A DNA stretch of 64,000 bases from Sacculina carcini (Eukaryota > Arthropoda > Thecostraca > Sacculinidae), in NCBI GenBank assembly GCA_916048095.2, contig OU696580.1, positions 6,156,608-6,220,607 on the forward strand, given 5' to 3'. The notes beneath the pieces are model-generated. The model saw only the letters and a list, made by a program, of their open reading frames with translations. It was not told the origin of the DNA and searched no databases. Below, piece by piece: positions 14,159-64,000 of this stretch. A program made the translations under genes and the position numbers. The first letter of the stretch is position 1. Each line of letters begins with the position of its first letter.

Positions 14159-14166
14159 TGACGTCA
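14159..14166. promoter_or_regulatory. Perfect CRE-type palindrome in each array-2 unit
   Basis: The sequence TGACGTCA, the full consensus for CREB/ATF-type factors, occurs in the array-2 unit within cactcagtgacgtcaccacc. Nearby are two more palindromic stretches, a duplicated ggtcgacc and ccgatcaaaatcgg. Whether it binds anything is unknown; an 8-mer can occur by chance and then be copied with the unit. Confidence 0.4.
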
Positions 14167-14803: not shown

Positions 14804-14869
14804 ATGTCAATACTCACAGAAGACTTCTCGGAACAGGGCCTAATTGACATGTGACTCCGGGCTGATACC

Positions 14870-15318: not shown

Positions 15319-17997
15319 GTGTTGAATTTCAACCCTCAGGCTATATGTTGGAACGGTAATCAGAGTTCGTGCTCCCATCCAGCATATGGTCGACCATTTC
15401 GCAAGGGTCGACCTACTTGACACGGCATAGCCGATCAAAATCGGCCAGCCACTCAGTGACGTCACCACCGAAACGCGGTAGGGCCCGCCCTATCCTATGA
15501 AGGATCAGCCCTCGGGCCTGCATTAAAATTTAAATTTAGAATTTGAATGAAAACTTTCGCTACTCTGTCAGCGGATTTGTCAGGAACAGGAAACGACTCG
15601 GGAAAACCAGAAAAGTGATCGACAATATTAATAAGAAATATATTTGCCGTTGCGTTGCCGTTTACGTGCCGTTGATTTGCGGATAGTACGCGTGTATAAC
15701 AGTGTGCTTCACCTGGAAGACTTGAAAATGCGCCTCATTTACCTGGTACAAAACTCCCTACTTTGATGTTATGATTTTCTTCAGGGTCTGATTATTGTGT
15801 TCAGTGTGTGTCTGATTATGTGTGTGTGAAGCTGCCCATCTGAAGCACCTGTGACGGTGACGTTTTGCTGCTGGAAGAGTCGTTTGTTTTCAAACCAGAT
15901 TGCGAAGTTTTCCGCTTTCTCTTGATGCCTGAAATAGAGAAATTTAGAGAACATGTTCGTGCGAAGCTGAAGCTAAAATATAATGTTGAATGTGTTACGT
16001 ACAACATTTATCGTTTGAAATTGGTGCATTGTGCAAGAAACAAGCAAGCTTTTGCAAACAGGATGTCAACATCTGGAATGGTTTGCCGGGTTGGATGGTG
16101 AATGTCAATACTCACAGAAGACTTCTCGGAACAGGGCCTAATTGACATGTGACTCCGGGCTGATACCTAAGTAGTCAGTATCATCACCGACCTGCGACTC
16201 TGGCGCATTGCCAGTCCAGAGGGTAGCTTCCAAGCTTCAAGACCGAAGCTACCGAGAGGGTAGCTTCCCCGGGCTGTAATTGGCTCACCGGGGGCAGGCT
16301 TGCACCCGTCAGATCACTGAGCTGGGCCTGATTTGCTTTTGTGTCAGGGGCAGCTCCCTGGTTGTGGCGAGACATCTCTTCCCCGGGTGCGCCACATCCC
16401 GGCATCACACTCCCAGATACTCATAGCGACGGGACACCTTCCCCCGGTTCGTCGCCTCCGGGCATCACACTCTCACAGACATACAGATAGTCATCGTAAG
16501 CATTGCTGTATGCCACAGTACATTCAGATGTCTTCGCTGTCACATCCTTCAAAGTCCTGAGCGCCTCACTCCGAGAGTTTTCCCTTTCCGCCAAGGCTGA
16601 GGGTGTTGAATTTCAACCCTCAGGCTATATGTTGGAACGGTAATCAGAGTTCGTGCTCCCATCCAGCATATGGTCGACCATTTCGCAAGGGTCGACCTAC
16701 TTGACACGGCATAGCCGATCAAAATCGACCAGCCACTCAGTGACGTCACCACCGAAACGCGGTAGGGCCCGCCCTATCCTATGAAGGATCAGCCCTCGGG
16801 CCTGCATTAAAATTTAAATTTAGAATTTGAATGAAAACTTTCGCTACTCTGTCAGCGGATTTGTCAGGAACAGGAAACGACTCGGGAAAACCAGAAAAGT
16901 GATCGACAATATTAATAAGAAATATATTTGCCGTTGCGTTGCCGTTTACGTGCCGTTGATTTGCGGATAGTACGCGTGTATAACAGTGTGCTTCACCTGG
17001 AAGACTTGAAAATGCGCCTCATTTACCTGGTACAAAACTCCCTACTTTGATGTTATGATTTTCTTCAGGGTCTGATTATTGTGTTCAGTGTGTGTCTGAT
17101 TATGTGTGTGTGAAGCTGCCCATCTGAAGCACCTGTGACGGTGACGTTTTGCTGCTGGAAGAGTCGTTTGTTTTCAAACCAGACTGCGAAGTTTTCCGCT
17201 TTCTCTTGATGCCTGAAATAGAGAAATTTAGAGAACATGTTCGTGCGAAGCTGAAGCTAAAATATAATGTTGAATGTGTTACGTACAACATTTATCGTTT
17301 GAAATTGGTGCATTGTGCAAGAAACAAGCAAGCTTTTGCAAACAGGATGTCAACATCTGGAATGGTTTGCCGGGTTGGATGGTGAATGTCAATACTCACA
17401 GAAGACTTCTCGGAACAGGGCCTAATTGACATGTGACTCCGGGCTGATACCTCAGTAGTCAGTATCATCACCGACCTGCGACTCTGGCGCATTGCCAGTC
17501 CAGAGGGTAGCTTCAAGAGGGTAGCTTCCAAGCTTCAAGACCGAAGCTACCGAGAGGGTAGCTTCCCCGGGCTGTAATTGGCTCACCGGGGGCAGGCTTG
17601 CACCCGTCAGATCACTGAGCTGGGCCTGATTTGCTTTTGTGTCAGGGGCAGCTCCCTGGTTGTGGCGAGACATCTCTTCCCCGGGTGCGCCACATCCCGG
17701 CATCACACTCCCAGATACTCATAGCGACGGTACACCTTCCCCCGGTTCGTCGTCTCCGGACATCACACTCTCACAGACATACAGATAGTCATCGTAAGCA
17801 TTGCTGTATGCCACAGTACATTCAGATGTCTTCGCTGTCACATCCTTCAAAGTCCTGAGCGCCTCACTCCGAGAGTTTTCCCTTTCCGCCAAGACTGAGG
17901 GTGTTGAATTTCAACCCTCAGGCTATATGTTGGAACGGTAATCAGAGTTCGTGCGGAGATTAAATTTGAGTATTTGCTTTGTACCCAGCTTCTTACA

Positions 17998-18220
17998 TCA
18001 GTGATTTTCTCGAGACGTACAAGGTCCTCCTTGTCGCTCCCCCAAAATGCATGGAAAATCTGCTGACTGCAGTCCTCGTCCCAGTGCACAGCTGTTAGTC
18101 GTAGCTGTAGGCCGCCAGAACGCAGCGATATGCCGACATTTTCTTGTCGTTCACGCATAGTGTAACGTCGCACAGTGAGTCATCGTGACGCAGCCAATTC
18201 AAACCAGAGCTTTCAAAGAG
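17998..18220 (-). pseudogene. BTB/POZ domain fragment, broken
   Basis: Minus-strand reading gives SGLNWLRHDDSLCDVTLCVN, then DKKMSAYRCVLAAYSYD followed by a stop; in another frame it resumes with EDLVRLEKITD and then gtaaga, which looks like a splice donor. The order LCDVTL, (H/Y)RCVLAA and VRLEKITD matches the first half of a BTB domain of the Kelch-like type, which mediates dimerisation and cullin-3 binding. The frame break and stop make it nonfunctional. Confidence 0.65.
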
Positions 18221-18468
18221 GCAGACACTGAGTGTTTGTGAGAGGCAGACACTGAGTGGTCTCTCCCCGTGATTATGCTAGCAGTTGCATGCTTCAGTGC
18301 ACTCAGGCGTTGATCGAAAAGAGACCAGAGTACCCCAGTGGCCACGATCTGACCCCAGCTACTCTTGCTCACGTCCTTCATTTCGTTCTCTATCGAGGTC
18401 ATCAGTGACTGTGATCCAACATTGTAGGTGACACCATTGTAGAAAACTGACTGCTCCGGCTTGGCGAA
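18199..18468 (-). pseudogene. Unidentified reading frame in the long variant
   Basis: The minus-strand frame runs GKFFAKPEQSVFYNGVTYNV, then GSQSLMTSIENEMKDVSKSS and WGQIVATGVLWSLFDQRLSA, and ends after HSVSASLKALV. It is open in the two matching copies at 18.2 and 33.1 kb and largely in the one at 54.3 kb. Upstream in another frame is an Arg-rich stretch (ARRRRLTVRQLRRQ). The composition looks like real protein, but I do not recognise the family. Confidence 0.35.
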
Positions 18469-21400
18469 GAACTTACCCCTGCGGTAGGGGGGTTAGAATT
18501 CTGCCGCCGTAGCTGCCGCACTGTGAGGCGTCGCCGACGAGCATGCGCCGGTAGAACCGGCGCGCGCTCCCATCCAGCATATGGTCGACCATTTCGCAAG
18601 GGTCGACCTACTTGACACGGCATAGCCGATCAAAATCGGCCAGCCACTCAGTGACGTCACCACCGAAACGTGGTAGGGCCCGCCCTATCCTATGAAGGAT
18701 CAGCCCTCGGGCCTGCATTAAAATTTAAATTTAGAATTTGAATGAAAACTTTCGCTACTCTGTCAGCGGATTTGTCAGGAACAGGAAACGACTCGGGAAA
18801 ACCAGAAAAGTGATCGACAATATTAATAAGAAATATATTTGCCGTTGCGTTGCCGTTTACGTGCCGTTGATTTGCGGATAGTACGCGTGTATAACAGTGT
18901 GCTTCACCTGGAAGACTTGAAAATGCGCCTCATTTACCTGGTTACAAAACTCCCTACTTTGATATGTTATGATTTTCTTCAGGCTCTGATTATTGTGTTC
19001 AGCGTGTGTCTGATTATGTGTGTGTGAAGCTGCCCATCTGAAGCACCTGTGACGGTGACGTTTTGCTGCTGGAAGAGTCGTTTGTTTTCAAACCAGATTG
19101 CGAAGTTTTCCGCTTTCTCTTGATGCCTGAAATAGAGAAATTTAGAGAACATATTCGTGCGAAGCTGAAGCTAAAATATAATGTTGAATGTGTTACGTAC
19201 AACATTTATCGTTTGAAATTGGTGCATTGTGCAAGAAACAAGCAAGCTTTTGCAAACAGGATGTCACCATCTGGAATGGTTTGCCGGGTTGGATGGTGAA
19301 TGTCAATACTCACAGAAGACTTCTCGGAACAGGGCCTAATTGACATGTGACTCCGGGCTGATACCTCAGTAGTCAGTATCATCACCGACCTGCGACTCTG
19401 GCGCATTGCCAGTCCAGAGGGTAGCTTCAAGAGGGTAGCTTCCAAGCTTCAAGAGCGAAGCTACCGAGATGGTAGCTTCCCCGGGCTGTAATTGGCTCAC
19501 CGGGGGCAGGTTTGCACCCGTCAGATCACTGAGCTGGGCCTGATTGGCTTTTGTGTCAGGGGCAGCTCCCTGGTTGTGTCGAGACATCTCTTCCCCGGGT
19601 GCGCCACATCCCGGCATCACACTCCCAGATACTCATAGCGACGGGACACCTTCCCCCGGTTCGTCGCCTCCGGGCATCACACTCTCACAGACATACAGAT
19701 AGTCATCGTAAGCATTGCTGTATGCCACAGTACATTCAGATGTCTTCGCTGTCACATCCTTCAAAGTCCTGAGCGCCTCACTCCGAGAGTTTTCCCTTTC
19801 CGCCAAGGCTGAGGGTGTTGAATTTCAACCCTCAGGCTATATGTTGGAACGGTAATCAGAGTTCGTGCTCCCATCCAGCATATGGTCGACCATTTCGCAA
19901 GGGTCGACCTACTTGATACGGCATAGCCGATCAAAATCGGCCAGCCACTCAGTGACGTCACCACCGAAACGCGGTAGGGCCCGCCCTATCCTATGAAGGA
20001 TCAGCCCTCGGGCCTGCATTAAAATTTAAATTTAGAATTTGAATGAAAACTTTCGCTACTCTGTCAGCGGATTTGTCAGGAACAGGAAACGACTCGGGAA
20101 AACCAGAAAAGTGATCGACAATATTAATAAGAAATATATTTGCCGTTGCGTTGCCGTTTACGTGCCGTTGATTTGCGGATAGTACGCGTGTATAACAGTG
20201 TGCTTCACCTGGTAGACTTGAAAATGCGCCTCATTTACCTGGTACAAAACTCCCTACTTTGATGTTATGATTTTCTTCAGGGTCTGATTATTGTGTTCAG
20301 TGTGTGTCTGATTATGTGTGTGTGAAGCTGCCTATCTGAAGCACCTGTGACGGTGACGTTTTGCTGCTGGAAGAGTCGTTTGTTTTCAAACCAGATTGCG
20401 AAGTTTTCCGCTTTCTCTTGATGCCTGAAATAGAGAAATTTAGAGAACATGTTCGTGCGAAGCTGAAGCTAAAATATAATGTTGAATGTGTTACGTACAA
20501 CATTTATCGTTTGAAATTGGTGCATTGTGCAAGAAACAAGCAAGCTTTTGCAAACAGGATGTCAACATCTGGAATGGTTTGCCGGGTTGGATGGTGAATG
20601 TCAATACTCACAGAAGACTTCTCGGAACAGGGCCTAATTGACATGTGACTCCGGGCTGATACCTCAGTAGTCAGTATCATCACCGACCTGCGACTCTGGC
20701 GCATTGCCAGTCCAGAGGGTAGCTTCAAGAGGGTAGCTTCCAAGCTTCAAGACCGAAGCTACCGAGAGGGTAGCTTCCCCGGGCTGTAATTGGCTCACCG
20801 GGGGCAGGCTTGCACCCGTCAGATCACTGAGCTGGGCCTGATTTGCTTTTGTGTCAGGGGCAGCTCCCTGGTTGTGGCGAGACATCTCTTCCCCGGGTGC
20901 GCCACATCCCGGCATCACACTCCCAGATACTCATAGCGACGGGACACCTTCCCCCGGTTCGTCGCCTCCGGGCATCACACTCTCACAGACATACAGATAG
21001 TCATCGTAAGCATTGCTGTATGCCACAGTACATTCAGATGTCTTCGCTGTCACATCCTTCAAAGTCCTGAGCGCCTCACTCCGAGAGTTTTCCCTTTCCG
21101 CCAAGGCTGAGGGTGTTGAATTTCAACCCTCAGGATATATGTTGGAACGGTAATCAGAGTTCGTGCTCCCATCCAGCATATGGTCGACCATTTCGCAAGG
21201 GTCGACCTACTTGATACGGCATAGCCGATCAAAATCGGCCAGCCACTCAGTGACGTCACCACCGAAACGCGGTAGGGCCCGCCCTATCCTATGAAGGATC
21301 AGCCCTCGGGCCTGCATTAAAATTTAAATTTAGAATTTGAATGAAAACTTTCGCTACTCTGTCAGCGGATTTGTCAGGAACAGGAAACGACTCGGGAAAA

Positions 21401-22516
21401 CCAGAAAAGTGATCGACAATATTAATAAGAAATATATTTGCCGTTGCGTTGCCGTTTACGTGCCGTTGATTTGCGGATAGTACGCGTGTATAACAGTGTG
21501 CTTCACCTGGTAGACTTGAAAATGCGCCTCATTTACCTGGTACAAAACTCCCTACTTTGATGTTATGATTTTCTTCAGGGTCTGATTATTGTGTTCAGTG
21601 TGTGTCTGATTATGTGTGTGTGAAGCTGCCTATCTGAAGCACCTGTGACGGTGACGTTTTGCTGCTGGAAGAGTCGTTTGTTTTCAAACCAGATTGCGAA
21701 GTTTTCCGCTTTCTCTTGATGCCTGAAATAGAGAAATTTAGAGAACATGTTCGTGCGAAGCTGAAGCTAAAATATAATGTTGAATGTGTTACGTACAACA
21801 TTTATCGTTTGAAATTGGTGCATTGTGCAAGAAACAAGCAAGCTTTTGCAAACAGGATGTCAACATCTGGAATGGTTTGCCGGGTTGGATGGTGAATGTC
21901 AATACTCACAGAAGACTTCTCGGAACAGGGCCTAATTGACATGTGACTCCGGGCTGATACCTCAGTAGTCAGTATCATCACCGACCTGCGACTCTGGCGC
22001 ATTGCCAGTCCAGAGGGTAGCTTCAAGAGGGTAGCTTCCAAGCTTCAAGACCGAAGCTACCGAGAGGGTAGCTTCCCCGGGCTGTAATTGGCTCACCGGG
22101 GGCAGGCTTGCACCCGTCAGATCACTGAGCTGGGCCTGATTTGCTTTTGTGTCAGGGGCAGCTCCCTGGTTGTGGCGAGACATCTCTTCCCCGGGTGCGC
22201 CACATCCCGGCATCACACTCCCAGATACTCATAGCGACGGGACACCTTCCCCCGGTTCGTCGCCTCCGGGCATCACACTCTCACAGACATACAGATAGTC
22301 ATCGTAAGCATTGCTGTATGCCACAGTACATTCAGATGTCTTCGCTGTCACATCCTTCAAAGTCCTGAGCGCCTCACTCCGAGAGTTTTCCCTTTCCGCC
22401 AAGGCTGAGGGTGTTGAATTTCAACCCTCAGGCTATATGTTGGAACGGTAATCAGAGTTCGTGCTCCCATCCAGCATATGGTCGACCATTTCGCAAGGGT
22501 CGACCTACTTGACACG

Positions 22517-40309: not shown

Positions 40310-40946
40310 CGCATGCCGCATGGTCGGATTGTCGGCGACTAATCCGGCCCCCCACTGGCCTATGCCAGTGAGGAGGGTGGCCAGACACCCAGCAGGAAGA
40401 AAAACAAGACCTGTCAAAGGGCGGATGAGCTGGTTAGCAGCCAACGGCCATCTGGAAACCCTCCCCCGTCGGATCGGCAAACAGGATCCTGGCCGCTGAG
40501 TGTCACGTCACCCGGGGTATAGTGGTGGCGTGACGCAACACTCGTCTTTGGCCTGCGCGTCGAACCCCGACTGGGCCGCTGTTTGGCTCCTCGACAGTGG
40601 AGAGAATGGTCCGACGCCGGCACGGGTGGCCGGATAGGGCTCAAGAGGGTCAAGGGTGAGGTGCCTGGTGCTCGAGGGGGGTCCCGCCCGGTGCAGTGTC
40701 CGCCGTTTGCAGTGGGGCTGCAGTTGCTGTGTCCAGATGGACCGGTGGGGGTCACTGGTCCGGGCCCGGTGCTGTAGCTCCCGCGGACTCGTACCGGGCG
40801 GAGCTCGCAGCGAGCTCAGGGGTATTCGGTGCCCGTACAGCGCGCACCACCACTGGCGTGGCATCCCATGCTGGCTCTGCCCGTCCCCCCAGTAGGGCCC
40901 CGTGCAGAGGAGGGTGGTCGTGCGCGCAGAGACAAACAAACAATTC
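40310..40946 (+). promoter_or_regulatory. 5' untranslated region of the retrotransposon
   Basis: The GC-rich leader starts cgcatgccgcatggtcgg and lacks a conserved coding frame. Non-LTR elements usually carry an internal promoter here, so transcription would start near 40,310; no promoter motif was proven. Confidence 0.6.
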
Positions 40947-42584
40947 ATGGCTTCAAAAACTCCAACCACCCCACCTGCTGGTCGTCCATCGGGCGATCGG
41001 CCACGGCCGCCGAAAGGTGGTCGTACTCTGAGCCACTTGCACGGCGACAGTCGTGCTGCACCTGTGCCGATGGTGCTGGTTTTTACCAGCACCAATGAAC
41101 ACGTGAAATTGTCCTCGCTGAACCCATTCCGTCGTCTGGATGGTTTCAAGAACATCGGAGACGCGCCTGTCGAGGCCAGCCGACAGAGAGACGGTTCTCT
41201 GCTGGTTAAATACGGCAATGAGACGGCAGCATCCCGCGCGATGAAGGCCGACACATTCCGGTATCGCGTGGGTACGGGTGAAAACAAGCGTTGGGTGAGC
41301 ACCCCCATCTCGGTGTGTGCGCACTCGACATTGAACCACGCCAGAGGTGTTCTGTTCTGTCGTGCGCTGGAGGGTGTTGATAACGATGAAATCTGCGACG
41401 GTTTGTCATCCCAGGGTGTCATCCGTGTGGAGCGCATCGTCCGACGGCGTGAGGGTAGCGAGGTGCCAACGCACTCTTTCTTCCTCACGTTTGACGGTGC
41501 TGTTCTGCCGGATGACATCAAGATCGGTGACATCCGTCAGCGTATCCGTGTCCGCCCCTACGTACCCAACCCAATGCGATGCTACAGGTGCCAACGTTTC
41601 GGGCATACGAGCTCCCGCTGCAACCGTGCTGAGATCTGCGGACGCTGCTCATCCGAACGGCACACCGCTGCTGATTGCGACAATGAGTATTTCTGCGTCA
41701 ATTGCAGGAGCAGCGGTCATGCGTCCTCGTCGCGTGACTGCCCGGAATGGCTGAAAGAAAAAGAAATTCTGGCTATCCGCGCTGCCCAGCGCTGCAGTTT
41801 CGGCGAGGCGCGTGCTGTATATCGCAGCTCGCATCCGTCGGGCCCGTCCTTTGCCGGCGTCGTCACGAAGTCGGCTCAGCCTCCACAGTCTGTCGACTCG
41901 TTTTTGGAGAAGCTGACTGTTGGAGACTTCTTGAAGCTGGCGGGACGAATGGGCTTGAAGCTGGTCGTACCTGGGGCTGATAAACATGAGCTTGAACCAA
42001 CACCGGTTGATCGGCGGCCTGAGGAGGCTGCCGTGTCGCGGTCGCCAACGGCCGCACCCCAGCGGTCCCAGGCGTCCGCGACCCAGCGGTCCCAGACGGC
42101 CGCAACCCAGCGGCCCAAGGCGGCCGCTCCCCAGCAGCCTGAAAAGGCTGCTGAGCGGCGACCTCAGCGGGTCGCCGATCGGCCGGTCAGCCGGCCGATG
42201 GACCGCGCTGGCAAATCGGCAGCGATGCCGGTTAGTCAGGGCGGCAAAAAACCGGCCGCTCAGCAGGCTTCCAAGCCAGCAGAGCGGTCGTCTCCGAACC
42301 GGAGGAAATCCGGAGACTGGACGGTGGTACAGCACAAGAGCCGCCGTTCGGTCAAGTCAGCCTCGCCGAGGAGTGACCGGCGAGCATCTCCCGGTCACAA
42401 AGCGAGCGCGGTCCCTGCATCTCCGCGCTCGGCGGTTGCTAGCGCACCGCCTTCCGCACACGACGGAGCGACTCCCACCACTGCCATGGAGGTGGAGAGT
42501 TCCTCTAAGCGGAAGCTCTCGGCCTCTCCAAGTGGGTCCCCACCTGACTCGGAGAGAGGACGATCGGCTAAGCGATGCGATTAG
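40947..42584 (+). CDS. Retrotransposon ORF1 nucleic-acid-binding protein
   Basis: The 545-residue protein starts at the first ATG in frame (MASKTPTTPP); the frame extends upstream only with non-ATG codons. Residues about 30-200 resemble the ORF1 region before the knuckles in Jockey/I elements (VFTSTNEHVKLSSLNPF). Three zinc knuckles follow: C212-x2-C-x4-H-x4-C225, C231-x2-C-x4-H-x4-C244 and a variant C250-x2-C-x4-H-x6-C265. The C-terminal half is basic, Ala/Pro/Ser rich, with several RSQ(T/A)AATQ-like repeats between about residues 360 and 395. It should coat element RNA and help form the RNP. It ends 85 bp before ORF2, which is in another frame. Confidence 0.9.
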   Translation: MASKTPTTPPAGRPSGDRPRPPKGGRTLSHLHGDSRAAPVPMVLVFTSTNEHVKLSSLNPFRRLDGFKNIGDAPVEASRQRDGSLLVKYGNETAASRAMKADTFRYRVGTGENKRWVSTPISVCAHSTLNHARGVLFCRALEGVDNDEICDGLSSQGVIRVERIVRRREGSEVPTHSFFLTFDGAVLPDDIKIGDIRQRIRVRPYVPNPMRCYRCQRFGHTSSRCNRAEICGRCSSERHTAADCDNEYFCVNCRSSGHASSSRDCPEWLKEKEILAIRAAQRCSFGEARAVYRSSHPSGPSFAGVVTKSAQPPQSVDSFLEKLTVGDFLKLAGRMGLKLVVPGADKHELEPTPVDRRPEEAAVSRSPTAAPQRSQASATQRSQTAATQRPKAAAPQQPEKAAERRPQRVADRPVSRPMDRAGKSAAMPVSQGGKKPAAQQASKPAERSSPNRRKSGDWTVVQHKSRRSVKSASPRSDRRASPGHKASAVPASPRSAVASAPPSAHDGATPTTAMEVESSSKRKLSASPSGSPPDSERGRSAKRCD

Positions 42585-42669
42585 GTACCTGTGCTACCTG
42601 GTTGTTAGTGTATATGTGCCTTTTTAACGGGAGTATTTATATGTATTTTATTCTATTATATTTATTTTT

Positions 42670-45600
42670 ATGTCCATTTTACAATGGAATATTAGAGGTA
42701 TTAGACCGAATTTTAATGATTTACTGCATATTTTACACTCCCGACAACCATCGATTTTAGCAATACAGGAGACTAAGCTTTTAACTTCTTCGTATTTTAG
42801 TATTCAGGATTTTAATGTTTTTAGATTTGATAATCCCAGCTCGACTATAGCCCATGGCGGGGTTATGCTGGCTGTTCGCACCAGTGTACCCTGTCGCCGC
42901 CTGCATATTCAGTCAGATTTGCAGGTGGTTGCGGTTCGGTGCTGGCTCGGTGGTAGGGAGGTGAGTGTGTGCTCATTGTACCTGCCGCCTGGTCGCCCGT
43001 TCCCAAGGGCTGACGTCGAGTTTTTAATCAGTTCACTTTCACCCCCTTTTTATGTGTTAGGCGATTTTAATGCTCACAGCCCTTTTTGGGGTTGTGATGC
43101 ATATTGTAGCCGTGGTTTTATTATGGAGGATATTTTAACTGTATTAGACATAGGTATTTTAAACACAGGCACATATACGCATTGTACCATGCCATCGGGA
43201 AGCATGTCCGCTCTGGACCTCAGTCTGTGCAGTCCCAGTCTGCAGGCATCCACGAGCTGGACCGTTGAGAACAGTCTGTATGGGAGTGACCACTTCCCTA
43301 TATGGATCTGTCTCAATGAGGTACCTAGGTTGGGAACACGACCACCGAGATGGAATTTCAAACGAGCTGATTGGGTCCGCTATGATTGCTTGACACTGGA
43401 AGCCATGGGCAACCCCACACTTCGACCCAGCGTCGAAGGTTTTGCTGAGGCCATTGTCACCTGTGCCAAACAGAGCATTCCGCGTACGGCATCGCGTCCC
43501 CGGCGGCGTCCTGTTCCTTGGTGGACAGACGCGTGTGCTACGGCGTTGCGAGAGCGACGTCGTTGCTGGGGTCGCTTCCGGCGCAACAGCACGTTGGCAA
43601 ACATGCTTTGCTTCCGCCACGCTCGCGCAAAAGCTCGATGGACCTTTCGCGAGGCGAAGCGGGCCTCGTGGGTGTCCTATGTGTCCAGCATTAATCGGCA
43701 TTGTCCTATATCCACCATATGGGACCGTATAAAGCGCATCTCTGGTAAGTACCGTCCCAATCCACTGCCTTCTCTGAAGATCAGTGGCGTGGACGTGATT
43801 AATCCGGAGCATGTTGCTGACGAAATTGGCCGATATTTAGCGGAGCGCTGTCGTGCAAACGTAGACGACCCTGATTTTGCGGCGATCAAACAGCAGTGCG
43901 AGAGATCACCCGTTGATTTCTCCACCAGCTGTCAGCTGCCAATCAACAGCGATTTTTCTGCATCTGAGCTGAGAACGGCCTTGCGATCGCTTCGCGATGT
44001 GGCTGAAGGCCCTGATGAGGTGCACAACCTCATGCTGAAACGTCTGTCGCCCGCAGTGCTGTCCACCTTGCTGCAGGTCTTCAATGATCTGTGGAGTGGT
44101 GGGCAGTTTCCGGCCTCCTGGCGACGGGCAATCGTGATACCCATCATGAAACAGGGCAAATCGGGCGATCACCCGTCTGACTATCGCCCGATATCGCTTA
44201 CCTCCAGTCTCTGCAAACTGTTTGAGAAAATGGTTTGCAGACGGCTGGTATGGTTTCTGGAACGCGGTCGGCTGTTCAATGATGCTCAGTGCGGATTTCG
44301 CCAGGGTCGCTCAACGTTAGACCACTTGGTGACCATTGACTCTCGCGTACGTGAAAGTTTCACGCGAGGTCACCACGTCGGGGCGATATTCTTTGACATC
44401 GAAAAGGCATATGACACCACATGGCGACATGGTATTCTTCGCAAACTGCATCGCTGTGGTGTCAGAGGCAACATGGGGAGGTTCGTACACAAATTCCTTT
44501 TGCACCGCACATTCTGTGTGCGTGTGGGGAACTCCCTGTCTCGTTCGTTCGATCAGGCAGAAGGCGTTCCACAGGGTAGTGTGCTCAGCGTGGCCCTTTT
44601 TGCCATAATGATCAACGACATTGACGATCATTTGCCTCCCTCGATTGGACGGTCTCTATTTGTGGACGACTTCGCCATATGGTGTTCTTCCCGCAGCACT
44701 GTTGCTGTCCAGCGTCAACTGCAGCTGGCGGTGAATAAAATAGAGACTTGGGGAACGCGTAACGGCTTCCGCTTCTCGACGTCCAAAACGGTCGGTGTAC
44801 ACTTCTGCCGCCGTCGAGGTGCCTGCCCTGACATGGAAGTGGAATTGTACGGCAGTGCTGTCTCATTCCAACGCACGGTTCGGTTTTTAGGGGTCACGTT
44901 GGACTCGCGCTTGACCTACACCGACCATATTTCACAGCTGAGAACCACTTGTCTAAAGGCACTGAATGTGCTGAAGACTGTTTCCCGCATGCGGTATGGA
45001 GCAGATCGACAGTCCCTTCTCCTTCTGTACCGCTCGTTAGTCAGGTCGCGTCTCGATTACGCAAGCATCGTATATGATCTGGCTTCGGAGTCAGCAAAAG
45101 GCCGTTTGAATGTCGTACACCACGCAGGGATACGCATTGCCACCGGCGCGTTTCGCACGTCGCCAATCGTCAGCCTCCTTGTTGAGGCTGATGAGGCTCC
45201 GCTGGCGCTCCGTCGTCAAGAGCTGGTCATGCGTTATTCTTGCAAGCTGGCAAGCACCCATGAAAACCCCGCGTATGACGTGGTATTTTCCCAGCATGTG
45301 CCTGAGCAGCAGCACCTTCCAGGACCTCAGTGTTCTGTGCTGTTTTGCAGCAAAATGAGGGCACTGCTGGAGTCATGCGGGATGGGTGCTAACGACGTCC
45401 TCAGACAAGAATACACGGCGGAGTCACCCTGGGAATTGGTCACACCCGAGGTTGACGTCTCGCTAGCAGCTCTGCCGAAACACCGTACAGTGCCCAGTGT
45501 GCTTCGCTCAAACACACTGGAGCGAATTCATTCTTACGGACGGTATACTGCCGTGTACACTGATGGATCTAAGTCGGCCAGTGGTGTGGGTTGTGCGTTT

Positions 45601-46371
45601 GTAAGTGGAGGTATGTGCCGCTCGAGCACGCTGCCACCGAGCGCCTCCATTTACACGGCTGAACTTCACGCTATCCTGCTGGCCCTGGTTTTTATTCGCT
45701 CATCTTCCTTTTCATTGTTTTTAGTTTTATCTGATTCCCTTAGTGCTTTAACTTCATTATCGTCTTTCTCCTTACATCCTCTTATACAGAGGATTTTTAT
45801 CTCTCTTGACGTCATCCACCACCAGGGCAAGCGTGTAAAGTTTTGCTGGATTCCGGCCCATATTGGTATTTTGGGCAACGAGCGAGCTGACAGAGCCGCA
45901 AAAAGAGCTGCTGAACGAGACTTTTATTCATTTTATTTTAACTTTCCCATTCCGTATTCGGACTTTTATCCTATTATACATCGTTTTATCCGCTCTCGCT
46001 GGCAGCTCTCCTGGGACGAATGTGGTTCTAACAAATTAAAAGCTGTGAAGCCCGAAATCGGACATTGGATGTGCTCTTGTCGCCGGAAGAGGTCCGAGGA
46101 AGTGGCGCTCTGTCGTCTGCGTGTGGGTCACACGTACGATACGCATCGCCATCTTCTACTCGGACAACCTGAACCCACGTGCAGCGCATGTAATGTACGT
46201 CTCTCCGTGCAGCACATCCTGGTGGAATGCCCATCATTCTCAGAGGCGCGTCAACGTTTTCTTGGATCCGTTCGGACTATTCACGATGTTCTTGGACAGG
46301 AGCAATCGGCGGTCATTGAGGGCCGCATTTTTGAGTTTTTACGGCTTTTGCCTTTTAGAATTATTTATTGA
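42670..46371 (+). CDS. Retrotransposon ORF2: endonuclease, reverse transcriptase, RNase H
   Basis: The 1,233-residue protein starts at ATG 42,670 (MSILQWNIRG). Apurinic-type endonuclease: N7, E34 (QETKL), D132-N134 (GDFNAHSP), D207-H208 (GSDHFPI). Reverse transcriptase: motif A D576 (FFDIEKAYD), PQGSVLS, and FVDD with D666/D667. RNase H: D965 (YTDGSKS), E998 (TAELHAIL), D1022 (LSDSLSAL), D1074 (NERADRAAK), the full DEDD set. A C-terminal Cys-His motif (CSACNVRLSVQHILVEC) follows, as in I/R1-type proteins. No frame damage is seen. The protein nicks target DNA and primes reverse transcription there. Use of FVDD rather than YADD is common in arthropod members. Confidence 0.95.
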   Translation: MSILQWNIRGIRPNFNDLLHILHSRQPSILAIQETKLLTSSYFSIQDFNVFRFDNPSSTIAHGGVMLAVRTSVPCRRLHIQSDLQVVAVRCWLGGREVSVCSLYLPPGRPFPRADVEFLISSLSPPFYVLGDFNAHSPFWGCDAYCSRGFIMEDILTVLDIGILNTGTYTHCTMPSGSMSALDLSLCSPSLQASTSWTVENSLYGSDHFPIWICLNEVPRLGTRPPRWNFKRADWVRYDCLTLEAMGNPTLRPSVEGFAEAIVTCAKQSIPRTASRPRRRPVPWWTDACATALRERRRCWGRFRRNSTLANMLCFRHARAKARWTFREAKRASWVSYVSSINRHCPISTIWDRIKRISGKYRPNPLPSLKISGVDVINPEHVADEIGRYLAERCRANVDDPDFAAIKQQCERSPVDFSTSCQLPINSDFSASELRTALRSLRDVAEGPDEVHNLMLKRLSPAVLSTLLQVFNDLWSGGQFPASWRRAIVIPIMKQGKSGDHPSDYRPISLTSSLCKLFEKMVCRRLVWFLERGRLFNDAQCGFRQGRSTLDHLVTIDSRVRESFTRGHHVGAIFFDIEKAYDTTWRHGILRKLHRCGVRGNMGRFVHKFLLHRTFCVRVGNSLSRSFDQAEGVPQGSVLSVALFAIMINDIDDHLPPSIGRSLFVDDFAIWCSSRSTVAVQRQLQLAVNKIETWGTRNGFRFSTSKTVGVHFCRRRGACPDMEVELYGSAVSFQRTVRFLGVTLDSRLTYTDHISQLRTTCLKALNVLKTVSRMRYGADRQSLLLLYRSLVRSRLDYASIVYDLASESAKGRLNVVHHAGIRIATGAFRTSPIVSLLVEADEAPLALRRQELVMRYSCKLASTHENPAYDVVFSQHVPEQQHLPGPQCSVLFCSKMRALLESCGMGANDVLRQEYTAESPWELVTPEVDVSLAALPKHRTVPSVLRSNTLERIHSYGRYTAVYTDGSKSASGVGCAFVSGGMCRSSTLPPSASIYTAELHAILLALVFIRSSSFSLFLVLSDSLSALTSLSSFSLHPLIQRIFISLDVIHHQGKRVKFCWIPAHIGILGNERADRAAKRAAERDFYSFYFNFPIPYSDFYPIIHRFIRSRWQLSWDECGSNKLKAVKPEIGHWMCSCRRKRSEEVALCRLRVGHTYDTHRHLLLGQPEPTCSACNVRLSVQHILVECPSFSEARQRFLGSVRTIHDVLGQEQSAVIEGRIFEFLRLLPFRIIY

Positions 46372-55837: not shown

Positions 55838-56060
55838 ATCAGTGATTTTCTCGAGACGTACAAGGTCGTCCTTGTCGCTCCCCCAAAATGCATGGAAAAT
55901 CTGCTGACTGCAGTCCTCGTCCCAGTGCACAGCTGTTAGTCGTAGCTGTAGGCCGCCAGAACGCAGCGATGCGCCGACATTTTCTTGTCGTTCACGCATA
56001 GTGTAACGTCGCACAGTGAGTCATCGTGACGCAGCCAATTCAAACCAGAGCTTTCAAAGA
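55838..56060 (-). pseudogene. BTB/POZ fragment at the right edge of array 2
   Basis: Same fragment as in the long array variants but with SAHRCVLAA rather than SAYRCVLAA, the residue usual in BTB domains, so this copy looks less derived. It has the same stop after YSYD and the same frame break. It runs directly into the right flank repeat at 56,052. Confidence 0.65.
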
Positions 56061-56107
56061 GACAGACACTGAGTGTTTGTTATTTGTTCAGATTGTATTT
56101 GCGATCA

Positions 56108-56739: not shown

Positions 56740-57889
56740 ACTACGGGACGACTGGTCTAGGTTGGGGATACTACCCACTTTGCTGCCGTCACTCTTAGAG
56801 ACCGACTTCACGGGCGCTCTCAACCTCTACATAATCCGACCCGTGCCATGGGCGCGCCAAGACCATACCGGAGCTAATAATGTCCGTTTGAGACAATCCG
56901 CTAGAGGACTCTGAAACTGGCCGTTTGAGACATAAAACGAGAGCGCGGGAAATGCGGACTCACGGTATGGCTTTTTCGCAATGGAATACGAACAATAGAC
57001 AGCCACATACACAATTACTGGGAAATGCGCATTACAATTTTATATGTCTATATCAAATATTAATAATAAAACGTTCATTTGCATGTTATAACGTGTCGCT
57101 GTGATGCTCCTTTCACTAAACACGTCAATTATCGCTAAAAATACATCTCACAAAGCAAAGGAGTTTGTTAAACCTCGATAAATTCCCGTTCGGCTGTCTT
57201 ATCACTAGATTAGAAAAACGCTCCGATCAATGCACATTCAATTTTAGCACGAACGATCACTTAGCAACACGAACGATCAACGAAGGATGACATGAAGGAT
57301 GTTCGAAGGATGAAGGATGTTCAATATCAACATCGCATGAGAGATACTAATGTGCCAACCTCTGTGGATGTTGTTATGGGTTTGTGTGTCCTGGCGAGTT
57401 GTTTTCGACCACATCGTGCCGGCCTCCTTCACCCATTCTCTCTCTTCACCTCCTGCTTGCGATTTGGTGCGCCATAGAGGGTAGTGTTTGAGAGTGGCGT
57501 GTCAAAGAAGATTGGGTGTTTATGTCACAGTGCGCGCGCTCTAGCCAGGCTGTGGAAATGTCCCTTGTTTTTTCAACTAGCCTCTGGCCAGGGTGTCAGT
57601 GTGTATTTTCATTCATACTGCCGACTACTTGTGTGTGTTTCGAACGTATTGACAATTATTCTCGTTTATCAGCTGGCATCGTATATGTTGTGTTTCTTCG
57701 CTAGTAGTCACTGCGCAACACGTCTTCATATCGTGAGTAACCTAATATACTACGTTTTCCTCATTCATGCTTAAGCATTGCACTGAACTGTTGAATAACG
57801 AATGTTACCCGAAGTAATAACTTTTGGTAATAAGAATGGTAAGAAATGTTCCATTACAGAGCTTCCTGGATTTATTGATCATCTTACGG
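56740..57889. other. Intergenic, no gene seen
   Basis: No recognisable protein or RNA gene. A short imperfect repeat of gaaggatg occurs at about 57,280-57,325. Open frames here are short and of low-complexity hydrophobic composition. Confidence 0.4.
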
Positions 57890-58062
57890 TTTGCCACAGT
57901 ACATTCAGATGTCTTCGCTGTCACATCCTTCAAAGTCCTGAGCGCCTCACTCCGAGAGTTTTCCCTTTCTTCCAAGGTTGAGATAGAATAGGATTTCAAC
58001 CCTCAGGCTATATGTTGGAACGGTAATCAGAGTTCGTGCGGAGATCAAATTTGAGTATTTGC
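57890..58062. repeat. Isolated diverged copy of part of the array-2 unit
   Basis: Matches the unit from the cagtacattcagatgtcttc region through gttcgtgcggagat and on into the start of the long-variant segment (atttgctttggcgg). It differs by several substitutions and an insertion near 57,980. The minus-strand frame ISTLEERENSRSEALRTLKD stays open and continues past the unit border (ANRKMINKSRKLCNGTF), so this may be part of the original single-copy locus. Confidence 0.85.
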
Positions 58063-58101
58063 TTTGGCGGGTTCCCTACCCCTGAGAGGGAACCCGCCAA
58101 A
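58063..58101. repeat. Perfect 15-bp inverted repeat
   Basis: Arms tttggcgggttccct (58,063-58,077) and its complement (58,087-58,101) with a 9-nt loop. It begins exactly where similarity to the array-2 long variant ends. Confidence 0.85.
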
Positions 58102-59393
58102 CCCTTGATGTTACCTAAACCCTTGAGAGGTTGCAGCTCGGTTTGAACCTTCATATGTGTATGAACTATGTAAAATATCACACCAAGAAACTTTGACATA
58201 ACATACTCGATAAATAGACTACTAGAATAACTACAGAGGGATATGATTGGAATCTTGAGCTTTGTGTTTGAGCTGTGTAGAATTACCTTGTGTGTAAGAA
58301 GAGTAGCATTTAATGACTTGCTAGAACCCATTTAAACCACAGTAATTTTACACCACTCAATGCAATGTTAAATGGGCTTGCATAGATTGAGCCAAGGGAA
58401 AAGGCGTGCAATATGATTTCTCTTATTAAGTATCTCATTAATTCGTGTTGTGTATGGTTTTTGTGTTTTTATTTGTTTTGTGTTTTTTCTATTTTTCGTT
58501 GTTTGTGTTTTTATTTGTTCTTTGTTGTGTAATCGTTTATTTTTAATTATTTAGTTTGGACATACTGATGCGAATGTTCCTTGTTGACACGAAATGTGAA
58601 TGTGTGTCAATATTTAGATTGTGAATAAAGTCATTGAATATGAAAAATGTTTTTGCTATTGTACCTGTATATGGTCAGTATCGACGTATGTGTGTGCTTT
58701 ATAAATATAAAATTATACAACATTTCCTAATTGAGTGTGCGAGTAATAACGGTGTTGGACTTGGATACAAAATATAAATTATATCATACAATTATTATAT
58801 TAATGCTCGTACGGGAATTTTAATTAGATTTGTTGTTCGGGCCAGTAAAGTGTCGGTTTCGAGATGGCGTTATGAAGAATTCATCAATGTCTGCATAAAA
58901 AGTCCATGCAGGTTCTTTGGGAAGCATTTACAAGCACAACTTATACAGGGGATGGTATTGTACTCAAGTCTTTACATCTATTTGGGTATTTAGTTCTGCA
59001 GATAATACGTTTAAAGCGAATTTAGTGTGTCACACGCTTCGTTGGCAAACTCTTCATAAATCAACTATATATAACTTCTTTATAACTCCTGGTTTTATAC
59101 TGCTATCGCTTTCTTCCACGTTGGGTTATGCTCGTATTTGGGCGGTTGTAAGGTCGATATGAGGGTCCGGACCTGGTCCCGAGTCTCAGTGGATGATGTC
59201 TGGATGATTTGGACAATCATGTATCAGTATGATCAATCAATCAATAATCAAATCATCAATATAATATACATCAACAAATCAACAACATCAACAAATCAAC
59301 ACATCAACACATCAACAAATCAATATAATCAAATCAGTATAATCAATCAGTATGATCTTCAGTGTGCAATCGGCCCAGACTTTCTCCAATCAG
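58102..59393. other. 5' region of the glucan-binding protease gene, first exon not found
   Basis: AT-rich. T-rich G-containing repeats occur at about 58,450-58,530, an aataaa at 58,624, a TATA-like ctatatataa near 59,066, and an atcaacaa-type simple repeat at about 59,225-59,350 just before a splice acceptor. A signal-peptide exon is expected here or upstream, but no ATG-led candidate has the right phase. Confidence 0.35.
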
Positions 59394-60860
59394 CAGGTTC
59401 CTCGTGCAAGATTCACGTTCTCCCCGGGATTCATATCGGTGAACGTCTCCAGTAAGTTGCACTTTTCTTCGTCCAATTTATTTTTGCTGTGATTGTGTTC
59501 CCCAATGAAATGGAACATTATTCAGAATATGAAGTGGGCTAACGTAATGAGTCCGTACTGAAAGTTGAAGACTCAATAGAATGATGTATTCAATGCAAAT
59601 AATGTTTTCAATCACTAATTACAAGATGCGTTCGTAAATTTGAAATCATTTGAATTACAATATACAAATTGAGAAACGAGATGTCATGTTTTGTAGAATC
59701 AATATATATTGTTTCCGTTGCAGTTGTTAGTAGCAGGTTGCAATATGAAGTAGTGTTATTTATATAATCCTCCAGGCAAACACATATGAATGTGTAGCAT
59801 AAAGAAACAACGTATGATGATGATGAGAGTGGATGATTTAGGTTTTGACGGAGCGAAGGAATGAGAGACATTTGATCATGCGTTTCCGGAAGATGAATTC
59901 TTACTTTTTGAAGAAAGATTCATTGTTAAAGCTCAACTATTTAGTAGCAATGTAAAACGATGTCTGAAACACGAACATACATTTTTCAAAGTGAATTTTT
60001 ACGATATGAAATAATACGTTTAATTTGAGACACCAGACATGGCTATGCTAACCAGCTGCAAGGACAAAACACAAAATATGAAAGTGTCATATTTAAAACG
60101 TATGCGCTGAACTCAGCATATTTGATGAATTTTCATCGTTGTTGTTTTTGCGTTGACCACAGAAGCACATCCTCTAATGAGCCTTGCAGCCGTGCACTTT
60201 TCTCTCAATGAGCCCGTGTTGGGAACCAAGCCAGGCGATATCAACAAAGATTTGACAGAAGTGGACGGAAAATACTTCTACGATGAGTTCGCGTTAGTTG
60301 CTTTGTGATATTTCACTGTTATTACCTTACCCTGTTGTAAGTTTCACGGAGTTTCAGTCAGTAATGTTGACCTTGTCCCCATATGAATGTGTAACATTAC
60401 AAGCTACTTCTCAATGATCCAAATTCTGCAAACAAAAGTCAAGACTTCAGATTGAAAAAGAATTGTACGACATTTTGGGTGATTTTTTCGGGATGTTTCT
60501 ACTAATTTCGAAATAATACACTGTTATTCATTTCAAAAATGCTTCAAATTGGAAAGAGATGGGGAGGGATATATACTTTTGCGTTTATAATTTTTTATGT
60601 CTCAACATTTTGGGTAGCCGACCCCTGAAATAGACCTTGAAATGTTCCTGCATGCGGGGCAGTGTTGATTGGGCAGATGGGGATATTCTCTACTACTGGG
60701 TGTACGTTATCGTGGACGGTCTGGGATATCAAAGATTGTCACAACAGCTCACCATCGGCTCACCCTCCTCCGATGCCGTCCACTCGTCAACACCCTCCAC
60801 CACACCACGATCACCTCGCGTTCGTGATCTGCCGATACCGTCGCCGGAATTCACGTTTGC
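59394..60860 (+). other. First CBM39 module (exons 1-3)
   Basis: Exon 1 begins after aatcag and encodes the opening beta-strand; exon 2 the NEPVLGTKPGDINKDL core; exon 3 the GDILYYWVYV strand, the most conserved CBM39 signature. A Ser/Pro/Thr linker (VHSSTPSTTPRSPRVRD) follows in exon 3. The exon-1 end (phase 1) is matched by the equivalent end of exon 3, as expected from duplication of one module with its introns. Confidence 0.8.
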
Positions 60861-62441
60861 TCCTCACATTATCAACGTGAAAGTACCCGGTAATGCCTTG
60901 CACGCGCTTCAGTGATCATGTGGATTGTTTTGCTTTCGTGATGTGGGGTTTAAATTAATAGACTTGAGAATTTCAATTGAGCGTACGGATTAATCTGCCC
61001 TATATGAGATCAAATGGACACGTTTGACCTCTGAGGAGTGTTATGTTCAAGACGTTTCATCTACCCATATTCGACTTCACTTATACGTGCGTTCATGGTA
61101 ATGTATAAGATGCGACAACCTAAGATATGGATTGTTCTATGGGTTCCTGAGCGTGTGTTTGTGTTTAATGTGTTGAGCTCCTTCCGGGGCTTCATTGATG
61201 GCCATCCATATGAGCCTCAACAAGCCCGTGCAGGGAGTACAAGCGGGAGATTTCAACGTCGACATGACTCCGCAGGACAACGTCTTCTCCACCAGCGTCA
61301 CGACCAACTGGAAGATCGGAGACATCATCAACTACTGGATGTTGATGAAACACAGGGGATTGGTCTATAGGAAAATGGGACAACATTTCCGCATTGGCGA
61401 CGGTTGGTCTCTTGTTTGTCTCCGGTTTCTGGATTATTCTATCATTCTGAAATGTGCCGAACATTGATAACAGCCGTTCGTTCATTTGTTCCCTCGAATC
61501 ATTTGCATTTGGTTTCAAACTGACTCCTTGATTGGTCGGCTTGCTTTTCCACTGGGAATTGTTCAAATACTACGGATCTGACCGCTCAAATTGTAACCTA
61601 ACCTTTAACATGCTGTTATTGGAGCGGTTGTTCTCGATGAGGTGAACAAGATAGCTGCGCTGTTGGCGTTGCTTTGCAGAAACATCCACTTCTTCCGATC
61701 CGAACAGTCCAGCTGTGTTTCAAACGAACGACTCCAGTAGCACGGAGTGTGATGGTGCGGACACTAATGAATTCTCTCTGTCTCTGGATTGCGGTCGCAA
61801 ACACTCCAGCTTCATTGACTCGTTGTTCGGCGACACAGCACTGAGAATTCTTAATGGAACTGAGACGGCACGCGGCGAACATCCCTGGCAGGCGGGATAA
61901 CAAACACCAGTGTTTGTCCTATCTGTATTATCACCGTAATATTCCTAGATAGTTCTGCATTTCTTACTGGATATATGATATTATTAGATATTAATTCTTG
62001 ATTGATATGTTTCTAGATAATCTACTTATTCGATATAGAAGCCATTGCTGTGGATACGAAAGTTTGACTTATTATTATGATCAGCCGTAATATGCATATG
62101 TGTAATTCTTAGCTTGGAGATTATTCGACATTACAACTAGGTGTTTGTGTTCACTCAGATGGACTTAAAGTCTGAATTATCCCTTCTTTCATTGATCTTC
62201 AGTCTCTGCTAACTTCGAACGCTTTCAATTTCTTGTTTGCCCCTAACTTTCCCTAATGAGACTTCATCTTGTTCTGCGTTGGAACTTTCTTCAATAAACA
62301 AGTATTTGTGTATTTGTCTAGGGGGAGATAGAGATTGAGATGAACGGAGTGTTTGAGCATCATTGTGGCTGCGTTCTGCTCACCAGTCGTATTGTCATCA
62401 CTGCGGCGCATTGCCTCACAAAAATCAGACACAAACTACAG
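59394..62441 (+). CDS. CBM39-CBM39-serine protease, secreted, partial
   Basis: Six exons can be joined: 59,394-59,451; 60,163-60,292; 60,663-60,889; 61,178-61,402; 61,680-61,891; 62,322-62,441. Introns 1-4 are GT-AG and all phases agree. Exons 1-3 encode a first CBM39 (VPRARFTFSPGFISVNVS, VHFSLNEPVLGTKPGDIN, GDILYYWVYVIVDGLGYQ). Exons 3-4 encode a second (FTFAPHIINVKVP, IHMSLNKPVQGVQAGDFN, GDIINYWMLMKHRGLVY). Exon 5 is a Ser/Thr/Asp linker with Cys residues, then RILNGTETARGEHPWQ, a trypsin-type activation site and N-terminus. Exon 6 ends with ITAAHC, the catalytic His. CBM39 binds beta-1,3-glucan in arthropod pattern-recognition proteins, so a role in sensing fungi and starting a protease cascade is inferred. 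Signal peptide and the Asp and Ser exons are missing from view. The exon-5 donor is non-canonical (GC). Confidence 0.82.
60841..61402 (+). other. Second CBM39 module (exons 3-4)
   Basis: Starts SPEFTFAPHIINVKVP at the end of exon 3 and continues in exon 4, which carries in one piece what exons 2 and 3 carry for module 1. The intron between the two halves of module 1 is absent here. Signature strands retained: HMSLNKPVQGVQAGDF and GDIINYWMLMKHRGLVY. Confidence 0.78.
61680..62441 (+). other. Start of S1 serine protease domain (exons 5-6)
   Basis: Activation site candidate R-ILNG within LRILNGTETARGEHPWQ; an upstream Cys (LDCGRKH) could be the disulfide partner that keeps the regulatory part attached after cleavage. 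Exon 6 encodes HHCGCVLLTSRIVITAAHC; CGCVLL replaces the usual CGGxLI. The His is present; the Asp and Ser of the triad are not in the window. Confidence 0.8.
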
Positions 62442-63166
62442 GTCATTTACCTATTACCTATACCTTTTTTTTATTGTTTCGAAATTTACCTTTTATTTTT
62501 TCTATAGTTTTATCTATTGTATTTTCGTTTTTTATTAGTTTTTAGAAGAGCACACTTATACTTCAAATATGCATTCCAATTTTATGTTATTTATGAGATA
62601 CAAGCTTACCGTGCCTGATTATTAAATACCAAATTATTCTATATCTATATTTGCGATTCATAAATGAGTTAATTCTAAACTCAGCATTTAGAAACCATTT
62701 ATTTATTTTGTGATGAAATGTATTGTAAGGAGAATTAACGCACAAACAACAACAATATGGTTTCACAATACACCTGCACGCCCGTGCAGACAAGTCACTA
62801 AATACTCCCCCAAACCCACTTCACATTAAACGCAGTAACACCCACACGACACCATCTCATGCACGACACTCCCGATTCATGATCATATCGCTCCGCAATA
62901 CGCATACACACAAACATACATACACATACATATACACACACACTGCACGCGCCACTTCCTTGACCGAACAAGGCAGCTGCATTTCACATATCGGTGCACC
63001 CGTGCAACATTGACGCAGGGGGCGCAACTACTTGAAACCGCATCGCCCGCACTGCCTAGTGCACTGTCACGTGCAGGCTCGCTCAAAACTACAATACTCG
63101 CATATACACAAATAATGTACAACGAAAGATACACAAATGTTTATATATACACAACACAAAACCACA
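62442..63166. other. Protease intron and probable LTR of an inserted element
   Basis: After the donor at 62,442 the sequence is T-rich to about 62,600. Somewhere in 62,560-62,720 it enters the outer end of an LTR that reads on the minus strand; the LTR start on that strand is likely tgtggttttgtg at 63,166, just after a purine tract. An aataaa-like signal (minus strand) lies near 62,705. The LTR outer border and target duplication were not resolved. Confidence 0.45.
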
Positions 63167-63175
63167 CCCCCTCCT
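63167..63175 (-). other. Polypurine tract of the LTR element
   Basis: aggaggggg on the minus strand, lying between the integrase stop and a TG-initiated LTR start, is where plus-strand priming is expected in LTR retrotransposons. Confidence 0.6.
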
Positions 63176-63185
63176 GATCTCAAGA

Positions 63186-64000
63186 TCACTCTGCAACATG
63201 GATGTCCATCCAAATTGGAGGCCGCCGCTCTCTTCCGGATCGTCTAGGAAGTTGTTCTGTCGGTGAGTCCACTGTTGACAGTCGAACTTCATCGGAACGT
63301 TCACCCTCCTCGTCTGGTGGGACTTGCACAGGCCGAATATCCAAGATATGGCGCGGAATGCCATTCACCGAAATGTTATTGGGTGAGTGAACATCCGTAA
63401 CAACGCCTCGAGTCCACTGCGAAGTACATCGTGCATCCGCCGGCTTCACCCATACTTCTTCACCGATGCGAACGGAGCTGTCTTCACAGTGGTAAATAGC
63501 AACACCATCAACAAGTGTTGTGTTACGCCAGTCGTAGCTATACACGTTACGATGAGGCACCGAAGAATCATCAGTACCAACCCTCGGTGACATGTTGTAC
63601 CAGTATGCCGCGGTAGTTGGTGGAACACGACTTCTTTCAGCCAATGCCTTTATAAAGCGATGATGTCGCTCGACAATCCCATTACCGCTGGGGCGGTACG
63701 CGGCGCGAAAATACGGCTTCACTTTCCACCGCTCCAACAGTTCTCGCATCTCCTGCGAACGAAACGCCCGCCCGTTGTCCATCAGCAGCTCATGAGGCGG
63801 TCCTCGCTCACGAAATATTTCGTCCAGGTGCGTGCATACTTGTTGAGACGTCTCAGATCGTATTTCCCTCCAAATTGCGAACCTCCCTGGTCCACTGTCC
63901 ACAACTGTCAAATATTCCCGATGGCGGTAATGGGTGATGACAATGGCTAGTCTATGCCATACTTTGTCGACGCTAAGGTGTCCAGCAACATGAGTCGACG
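63186..64000 (-). CDS. LTR retrotransposon pol, integrase end (Gypsy-type), partial
   Basis: The minus-strand frame is open from the window edge to a stop at 63,186, about 271 codons. The integrase catalytic core shows D (VVDSGPG), D (LLMDNGRAF) and, 35 residues later, E (GNGIVERHH), the D,D-35-E triad. A C-terminal region follows with a hydrophobic DNA-binding-like block (GEEVWVKP) and a basic tail LPRRSGRERRPP, common at the end of Gypsy-type pol proteins. Integrase inserts the element's cDNA into the host genome. The frame is undamaged as far as it goes. The rest of pol and gag lie beyond 64,000. Gypsy is preferred to BEL/Pao on style of the core and tail. Confidence 0.85.
   Translation of the reverse strand, partial: STHVAGHLSVDKVWHRLAIVITHYRHREYLTVVDSGPGRFAIWREIRSETSQQVCTHLDEIFRERGPPHELLMDNGRAFRSQEMRELLERWKVKPYFRAAYRPSGNGIVERHHRFIKALAERSRVPPTTAAYWYNMSPRVGTDDSSVPHRNVYSYDWRNTTLVDGVAIYHCEDSSVRIGEEVWVKPADARCTSQWTRGVVTDVHSPNNISVNGIPRHILDIRPVQVPPDEEGERSDEVRLSTVDSPTEQLPRRSGRERRPPIWMDIHVAE

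Follow-up and report, generated by a model that had tools for sequence, protein, structure and literature searches.

Does this stretch of Sacculina carcini DNA hold one gene in which glucan-binding modules are joined to the protease zymogen that they would trigger, and is such a gene still at work? The window, meaning the whole stretch of 64,000 nucleotides analysed here, takes in bases 6156608-6220607 of contig C15, in an assembly of 264 Mb in 43 contigs. An earlier note had read six in-phase exons from 59394 to 62441 as two CBM39 modules joined to the start of an S1 protease. By the splice model, both limits are exact, and the motifs that it named (LYYWVYV, INYWMLM, RILNG, WQ and AAHC) are all present in the spliced exons. 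The gene turned out to be duplicated, and the copy in the window is called copy A (Table 1). Its six exons are joined in phases 1, 2, 1, 1 and 0, are open throughout and give a product of 324 residues in the splice model. The first CBM39 module is spread over three exons and the second over two. Introns 1, 3 and 4 are in phase 1, which is usual for introns of shuffled extracellular modules. The junction after exon 5, following HPWQ, has a GC donor instead of GT (CAG/GCGGGA), identically in both copies; introns of the GC-AG type form a known minority. The window ends within intron 6, inside an LTR retroelement.

Table 1. Features of the two copies, with exon limits and phases as given by the splice model. 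Plain numbers are window positions; those preceded by C15 are positions on the contig.
Feature	Position	Strand	Content
Copy A exon 1 as modelled	59394..59451	+	First strand of CBM39-1, QVPRARFTFSPGFISVNVS; acceptor cag, donor gtaagt; phase 1 at end
Copy A exon 2	60163..60292	+	Middle of CBM39-1, SLAAVHFSLNEPVLGTKPGDINKDLTEVDGKYFYDEFA; phase 2 at end
Copy A exon 3	60663..60889	+	End of CBM39-1 (VDWADGDILYYWVYVIVDGLGYQ), S/T/P-rich linker, first strand of CBM39-2; phase 1 at end
Copy A exon 4	61178..61402	+	CBM39-2 body (SLMAIHMSLNKPVQGVQAGDFNVDMT...GDIINYWMLM); phase-1 introns on both sides
Copy A exon 5	61680..61891	+	S/T-rich linker, two pro-region cysteines, activation site ALR/ILNG, S1 start to HPWQ
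Copy A exon 6	62322..62441	+	His exon of S1 protease (VITAAHC); phase 0 at end
LTR retroelement start in intron 6	62708..64000	-	Left LTR about 62708-63133
Integrase frame of LTR element	63186-63998	-	rve 2.4e-12
Duplicated unit, copy A	57350 to about 67576 (in window 57350..64000)	+	
Duplicated unit, copy B	C15 6341900 to about 6355227		3' exons of its own follow, up to the stop at 6357043
Copy B gene	C15:6343815-6357043	same as copy A	Ten exons
Copy B exon 7	C15 6354946-6355042		VRLGQYDRTV...NFRS
Copy B Asp exon	C15 6355801-6355965		NDIALLLL
Copy B Ser exon	C15 6356308-6356529		DSCGGDSGGP
Copy B last exon	C15 6356901-6357043		WGAECG...stop

The domains are visible in the window before any splicing. 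When five single-exon frames were scanned with Pfam, CBM39 matched at 61177-61467 (E 4.6e-9), at 60634-60915 (1.1e-5; 25.6 bits against a cut-off of 25) and at 60129-60308 (0.0036, under the cut-off by itself), and Trypsin matched at 62322-62507 (2.4e-6); the linker and zymogen frame at 61655-61900 gave no Pfam match alone. In copy A, the frame of exon 1 extends back to an ATG at 59352, and exon 1 differs from that of the second copy by one amino acid. Scanning upstream for a signal peptide gave one weak candidate common to both copies, MFLLLYLYMVSID at window position 58647 with its donor at 58686, and we presume that the protein is secreted.

The second copy, copy B, lies 128 kb downstream on the same strand and is about 97% identical. 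By the splice model, its ten exons join without a stop in phases 1, 2, 1, 1, 0, 0, 1, 1 and 1 (the joins of exons 6-10 being 0, 1, 1 and 1), for a product of 532 residues that does not include the signal-peptide exon. A Pfam scan of this protein at E<=1 returned Trypsin over positions 1-220 of 220 (E 4.3e-58, 197.2 bits), CBM39 in two stretches (E 2.4e-24) and DUF1986, the last below its cut-off; there was no match to LDLa, CCP, CLIP or GH16. With the spliced protein scoring at this level for both CBM39 and Trypsin, the domain matches are not by chance, and the domain content foreseen for the joined translation holds for copy B, with CBM39 twice and Trypsin at full length. Both CBM39 modules are whole when spliced (49.8 and 40.1 bits against the cut-off of 25, with E 3.1e-13 for the spliced module at exon 3). 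The S1A domain (PF00089) is complete, with the catalytic His in TAAHC, the Asp in NDIALL and the Ser in GDSGGP. The Asp of DSCGGDS aligns with that of DACQGDS in tPA, which we take to be pocket residue 189; specificity for Arg or Lys is therefore expected. The activation site of copy B is itself Arg-Ile.

The long matching pieces of the two copies are 96.4-98.3% identical, falling to 90% in the piece around exon 7. Exon 7 of copy A lies beyond the window, at C15 6223912-6224008, and has three differences from that of copy B, all synonymous. About 175 bases past it, in intron 7, copy A departs from copy B. We compared the copy B protein by tblastn with C15 6156608-6433000, of which 10,001 of 276,393 bases are N, none of these being between the end of copy A and the start of copy B. 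Among the best 40 matches listed, exons 8-10 were found only in copy B, and no Asp or Ser exon was found for copy A. Where the protease weakly matched other frames in this region (E 0.35 and up, again among the best 40 matches listed), we took the matches as chance. Copy A is therefore 3'-truncated as far as found, and of the S1A domain it has only exons 5-7. The Asp and Ser exons named in the earlier note's check are thus present in copy B and were not found for copy A, and its picture of the window copy as a working sensor-protease is not supported.

In PDB, the CBM39 half has six matches, five of them to N-terminal domains of betaGRP/GNBP3 proteins (2kha at 7e-12, 3ie4 at 8e-9, 3aqy at 2e-8, 2rqe and 3aqx); the sixth, a plant glutamyl-tRNA reductase at E 0.46, is irrelevant. 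The glucan contacts described for such domains include Y78, G83, G85 and R87 of the Plodia protein (PMC6678557), and Trp76 (PMC6272582) and Asp49 of the Bombyx protein (PMC7915573) are also placed in the glucan site. In our alignment, both modules retain D49, W76 and G83; Y78 and G85 occur in module 1 alone, and R87 in module 2 alone. It is plausible from these residues that the pair binds beta-1,3-glucan, and the two modules may differ in preference. Since module 2 is without Y78 and G85 and module 1 without R87, affinity may be low or specificity different.

We consider it fairly probable that this duplicated gene encodes a single-chain protease zymogen triggered by beta-glucan, in the order CBM39, S/T/P linker, CBM39, linker, pro-region and S1A domain. 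A zymogen with two CBM39 modules, an Arg activation site and Arg/Lys specificity would be suited to intermolecular autoactivation on glucan. Through its CBM39 pair, the zymogen would attach to long beta-1,3-glucan in fungal or other walls, and several zymogens would align on one glucan. Neighbours would then cut each other after the Arg in ALR/ILNG, with a pocket Asp predicted to prefer Arg or Lys. The active protease would stay at the wall and cleave a further zymogen, with a CLIP protease that leads to Spaetzle and Toll as the likeliest target, or else a clotting substrate. We propose a clustering model because several molecules of betaGRP-N or factor G are described as clustering along one glucan as the trigger (PMC7915573, PMC6272582).

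The rest of the genome bears on what the protein might serve. No credible CBM39 locus other than copies A and B was found in the 264 Mb. The CBM39 profile at E<=10 gave five matches, four of them exons of A and B; the fifth, at C6:1319314 (E 0.54), contains five stops and was dropped. Searching with the CBM39 half produced 11 matches. Ten are in A and B, and the eleventh, a weak one at C11:5878546 (E 1.45) that reads GDFNVDM in the middle of a frame LINE-endonuclease-like by eye, was dropped. The CBM39 profile matched in none of 14 control genomes. The GH16 domain of betaGRP had no genome match at E<=0.001, the same profile having matched in 6 of the 14 controls. Hemocyanin_M had no genome match at E<=0.01 (one control matched, below the cut-off), and Hemocyanin_C matched neither in the genome nor in any control; the absence of PPO is likely rather than proved because no control matched for Hemocyanin_C. 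At E<=0.1, there were 5 exon-level matches to CLIP and 23 to Spaetzle. With CLIP and Spaetzle in the genome but no hemocyanin domain detected, Toll activation or clotting is a likelier output than melanisation. The earlier note had offered melanisation beside clotting; with no Hemocyanin_M match at E<=0.01, it is unlikely.

It is a more tentative suggestion, for which we claim only a sizeable chance, that all CBM39 glucan sensing has moved into this one sensor-protease, which would start a CLIP-Spaetzle (Toll) or clotting cascade, and that phase-1 exon shuffling of insect-type modules has here given rise, independently, to a factor-G-like trigger. Two other observations concern the immune genes. 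Sixteen of the 23 Spaetzle matches at E<=0.1 are on contig C23, which suggests an expanded cytokine family. A genome without GH16 and Hemocyanin_M matches but with CLIP and Spaetzle possibly has a reduced immune set for an arthropod. This pattern had first suggested a mite, which would have run against the published loss of betaGRP in chelicerates (PMC4833078), but an arginine kinase of the genome made a crustacean likelier, and the mite origin was dropped. Among single-domain PDB chains, the C-terminal half of this kinase scored highest with 5zhq, 4bg4, 8yx0 and 4bhl (515-525 bits), followed among others by 4am1 (502), 9fho (480), 6ky2 (464), 5u8e (452) and 1m15 (452); two double-domain chains ranked above them by adding up two stretches. 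Of these chains, 5zhq, 4bg4 and 8yx0 come from decapods, 6ky2 from Daphnia, 1m15 from Limulus and 5u8e from a spider. COX1 had no match at E<=0.001.

The alternative that survives best, although we regard it as unlikely, is that the protein is a digestive or developmental enzyme, tethered by CBM39 to dietary glucan such as algal laminarin, and senses no microbe. CBMs commonly direct enzymes to polysaccharide, no GH16 match was found in the genome, and there are arrays of trypsins at C9:10299665-10374835 (at least 22 matches) and C37:4625994-4774970 (at least 18). However, the array trypsins are single frames mostly of about 290-300 aa, some with stops, whereas the present protein is built as a modular zymogen whose N-terminal part is long. 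In PDB it is nearest to tPA, prostasin, coagulation factors XI and XII and plasma kallikrein, with PPAF-I within the best 60. For the 21 genome matches to the protease half at E<=1e-20, identity outside A and B reaches at most 44%, over half of the domain, and is 32-40% where the match runs full length.

Whether the zymogen gene is still maintained can be judged from how A and B have diverged. This comparison takes in exons 1-7, exons 8-10 existing in B alone. The seven shared exons differ at 12 of 1069 bases (5 amino-acid changes and 7 silent), against 87 of 2071 aligned bases in five introns (5.1, 2.4, 2.1, 4.7 and 5.4% in order); exon divergence is about a quarter of that in introns (Fisher p 7e-7). 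For the shared exons, dN is.0061 and dS.029, a ratio of about 0.2, and the probability of 5 or fewer amino-acid changes among 12 under neutrality is.008. Were copy A alone neutral, about 22 exon changes would be expected against the 12 seen in both lineages together (p.012). Because of the exon-intron contrast, the few amino-acid changes and the shortfall from about 22 to 12, protein-level constraint has probably acted on both copies during much of the period after the duplication.

The last of these figures would also fit copy A having a role of its own: a CBM39 protein that stops after exon 7, is dead as a protease and regulates B or competes with it, or exons 1-7 of A spliced to the 3' exons of B. 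Either would be compatible with a glucan-triggered zymogen made by copy B. We rate this as distinctly unlikely, as the truncation may simply be recent, and 132 kb separate A from exon 8 of B.

That the fusion gene was real but has decayed, with the LTR insertion and GC donor having ended its function and both copies being relics, we find quite improbable. The LTR element does sit in intron 6 of both copies, both have the GC donor, and copy A is without its 3' exons. Against this, all modelled exons are open in both copies, copy B keeps its catalytic residues and a complete C terminus, and the low dN/dS, the exon-intron contrast and the wholly synonymous changes in exon 7 all speak for maintenance.

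Last, it is very improbable indeed that two neighbouring genes, for a CBM39-only protein and an S1 protease, have been wrongly joined: the model is a genomic splice prediction with a GC donor within its protease part, and a CBM39-only protein, TcGNBP2, is described in Tribolium (PMC12645860), but intron 4, which separates the last CBM39 exon from the zymogen exon, is only 277 bp, neither it nor exon 5 has an AATAAA or ATTAAA in either copy, phases match at every join, and A and B share one exon order. Intron 4 and exon 5 contain six ATGs per copy, none of which reads in frame into RILNG, the two in the exon-5 frame stopping early, although a spliced first exon elsewhere would still fit. With the whole catalytic domain in copy B, the proposal of one gene for two CBM39 modules and one S1 protease stands.

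The single-chain zymogen is most readily compared with factor G of horseshoe crabs, in which two tandem glucan-binding modules are likewise coupled to an S1 protease zymogen and activation is likewise thought to require several molecules on one glucan chain (PMC7915573, PMC6272582). Factor G differs in being a heterodimer of alpha and beta subunits with glucanase-, xylanase A- and xylanase Z-like modules, whereas the splice model here gives one chain with CBM39; neither separate subunits nor xylanase-type modules are found. The betaGRP/GNBP3 proteins have CBM39 of the same type, with Trp76 and Asp49 kept. Unlike them, the present protein has no GH16-like C-terminal domain and carries a protease instead. 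ModSP, MSP and HP14 are also modular S1 zymogens and are proposed to act at the top of a cascade. ModSP, however, has LDLa and CCP modules, as described in PMC10732536, and depends on a separate sensor such as GNBP3, whereas here the sensor modules are built in. There is also no CLIP domain before S1, as there would be in a CLIP-domain protease.

Every module is known, and the combination differs from those of factor G, GNBP3 and ModSP; relatives with the same architecture may be present in databases. No description of a CBM39-protease fusion appeared in the titles and abstract openings of the literature searched, which covered few subscription journals. Palmer and Jiggins identify betaGRPs by GH16, and report betaGRP as lost in chelicerates (PMC4833078); a survey by GH16 only would therefore pass over a CBM39 sensor of the present kind. 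Sensing and initiation are divided in insects between two kinds of protein, the glucan sensor (betaGRP/GNBP3) and the initiating protease (ModSP, HP14), and in horseshoe crabs between two subunits, while here one protein could both sense the microbe and start the defence cascade. How glucan binding starts a cascade is described as not fully understood (PMC7915573). With a sensor-protease that is naturally a single chain, the activation of a zymogen by glucan could be tested on one recombinant protein, and the chain could serve as a one-component reagent for assaying beta-glucan.

Several other elements lie in and near the window. The two copies have the LTR element at corresponding places in intron 6, yet the likeness between its two LTRs is 99.1% in A and 96.5% in B, while the A and B introns differ by 4.2% on average. 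Gene conversion between the LTRs in A could explain this. From the spacing of matches, two tandem arrays, at about 5680-13581 and about 13947-22464 of the window, are judged to have units of about 850 bp and about 1.3 kb; TRF with periods up to 500 reported no tandem repeat for them, and pieces of both recur near copy B among the matches listed. Window 40896-46371 holds a LINE, with a zinc-knuckle frame (by eye) followed by an uninterrupted frame of 1247 aa with endonuclease, reverse transcriptase and RNase H. A short minus-strand frame at 55936-56079, immediately upstream of the duplicated unit, matches BTB/POZ (1.1e-7).
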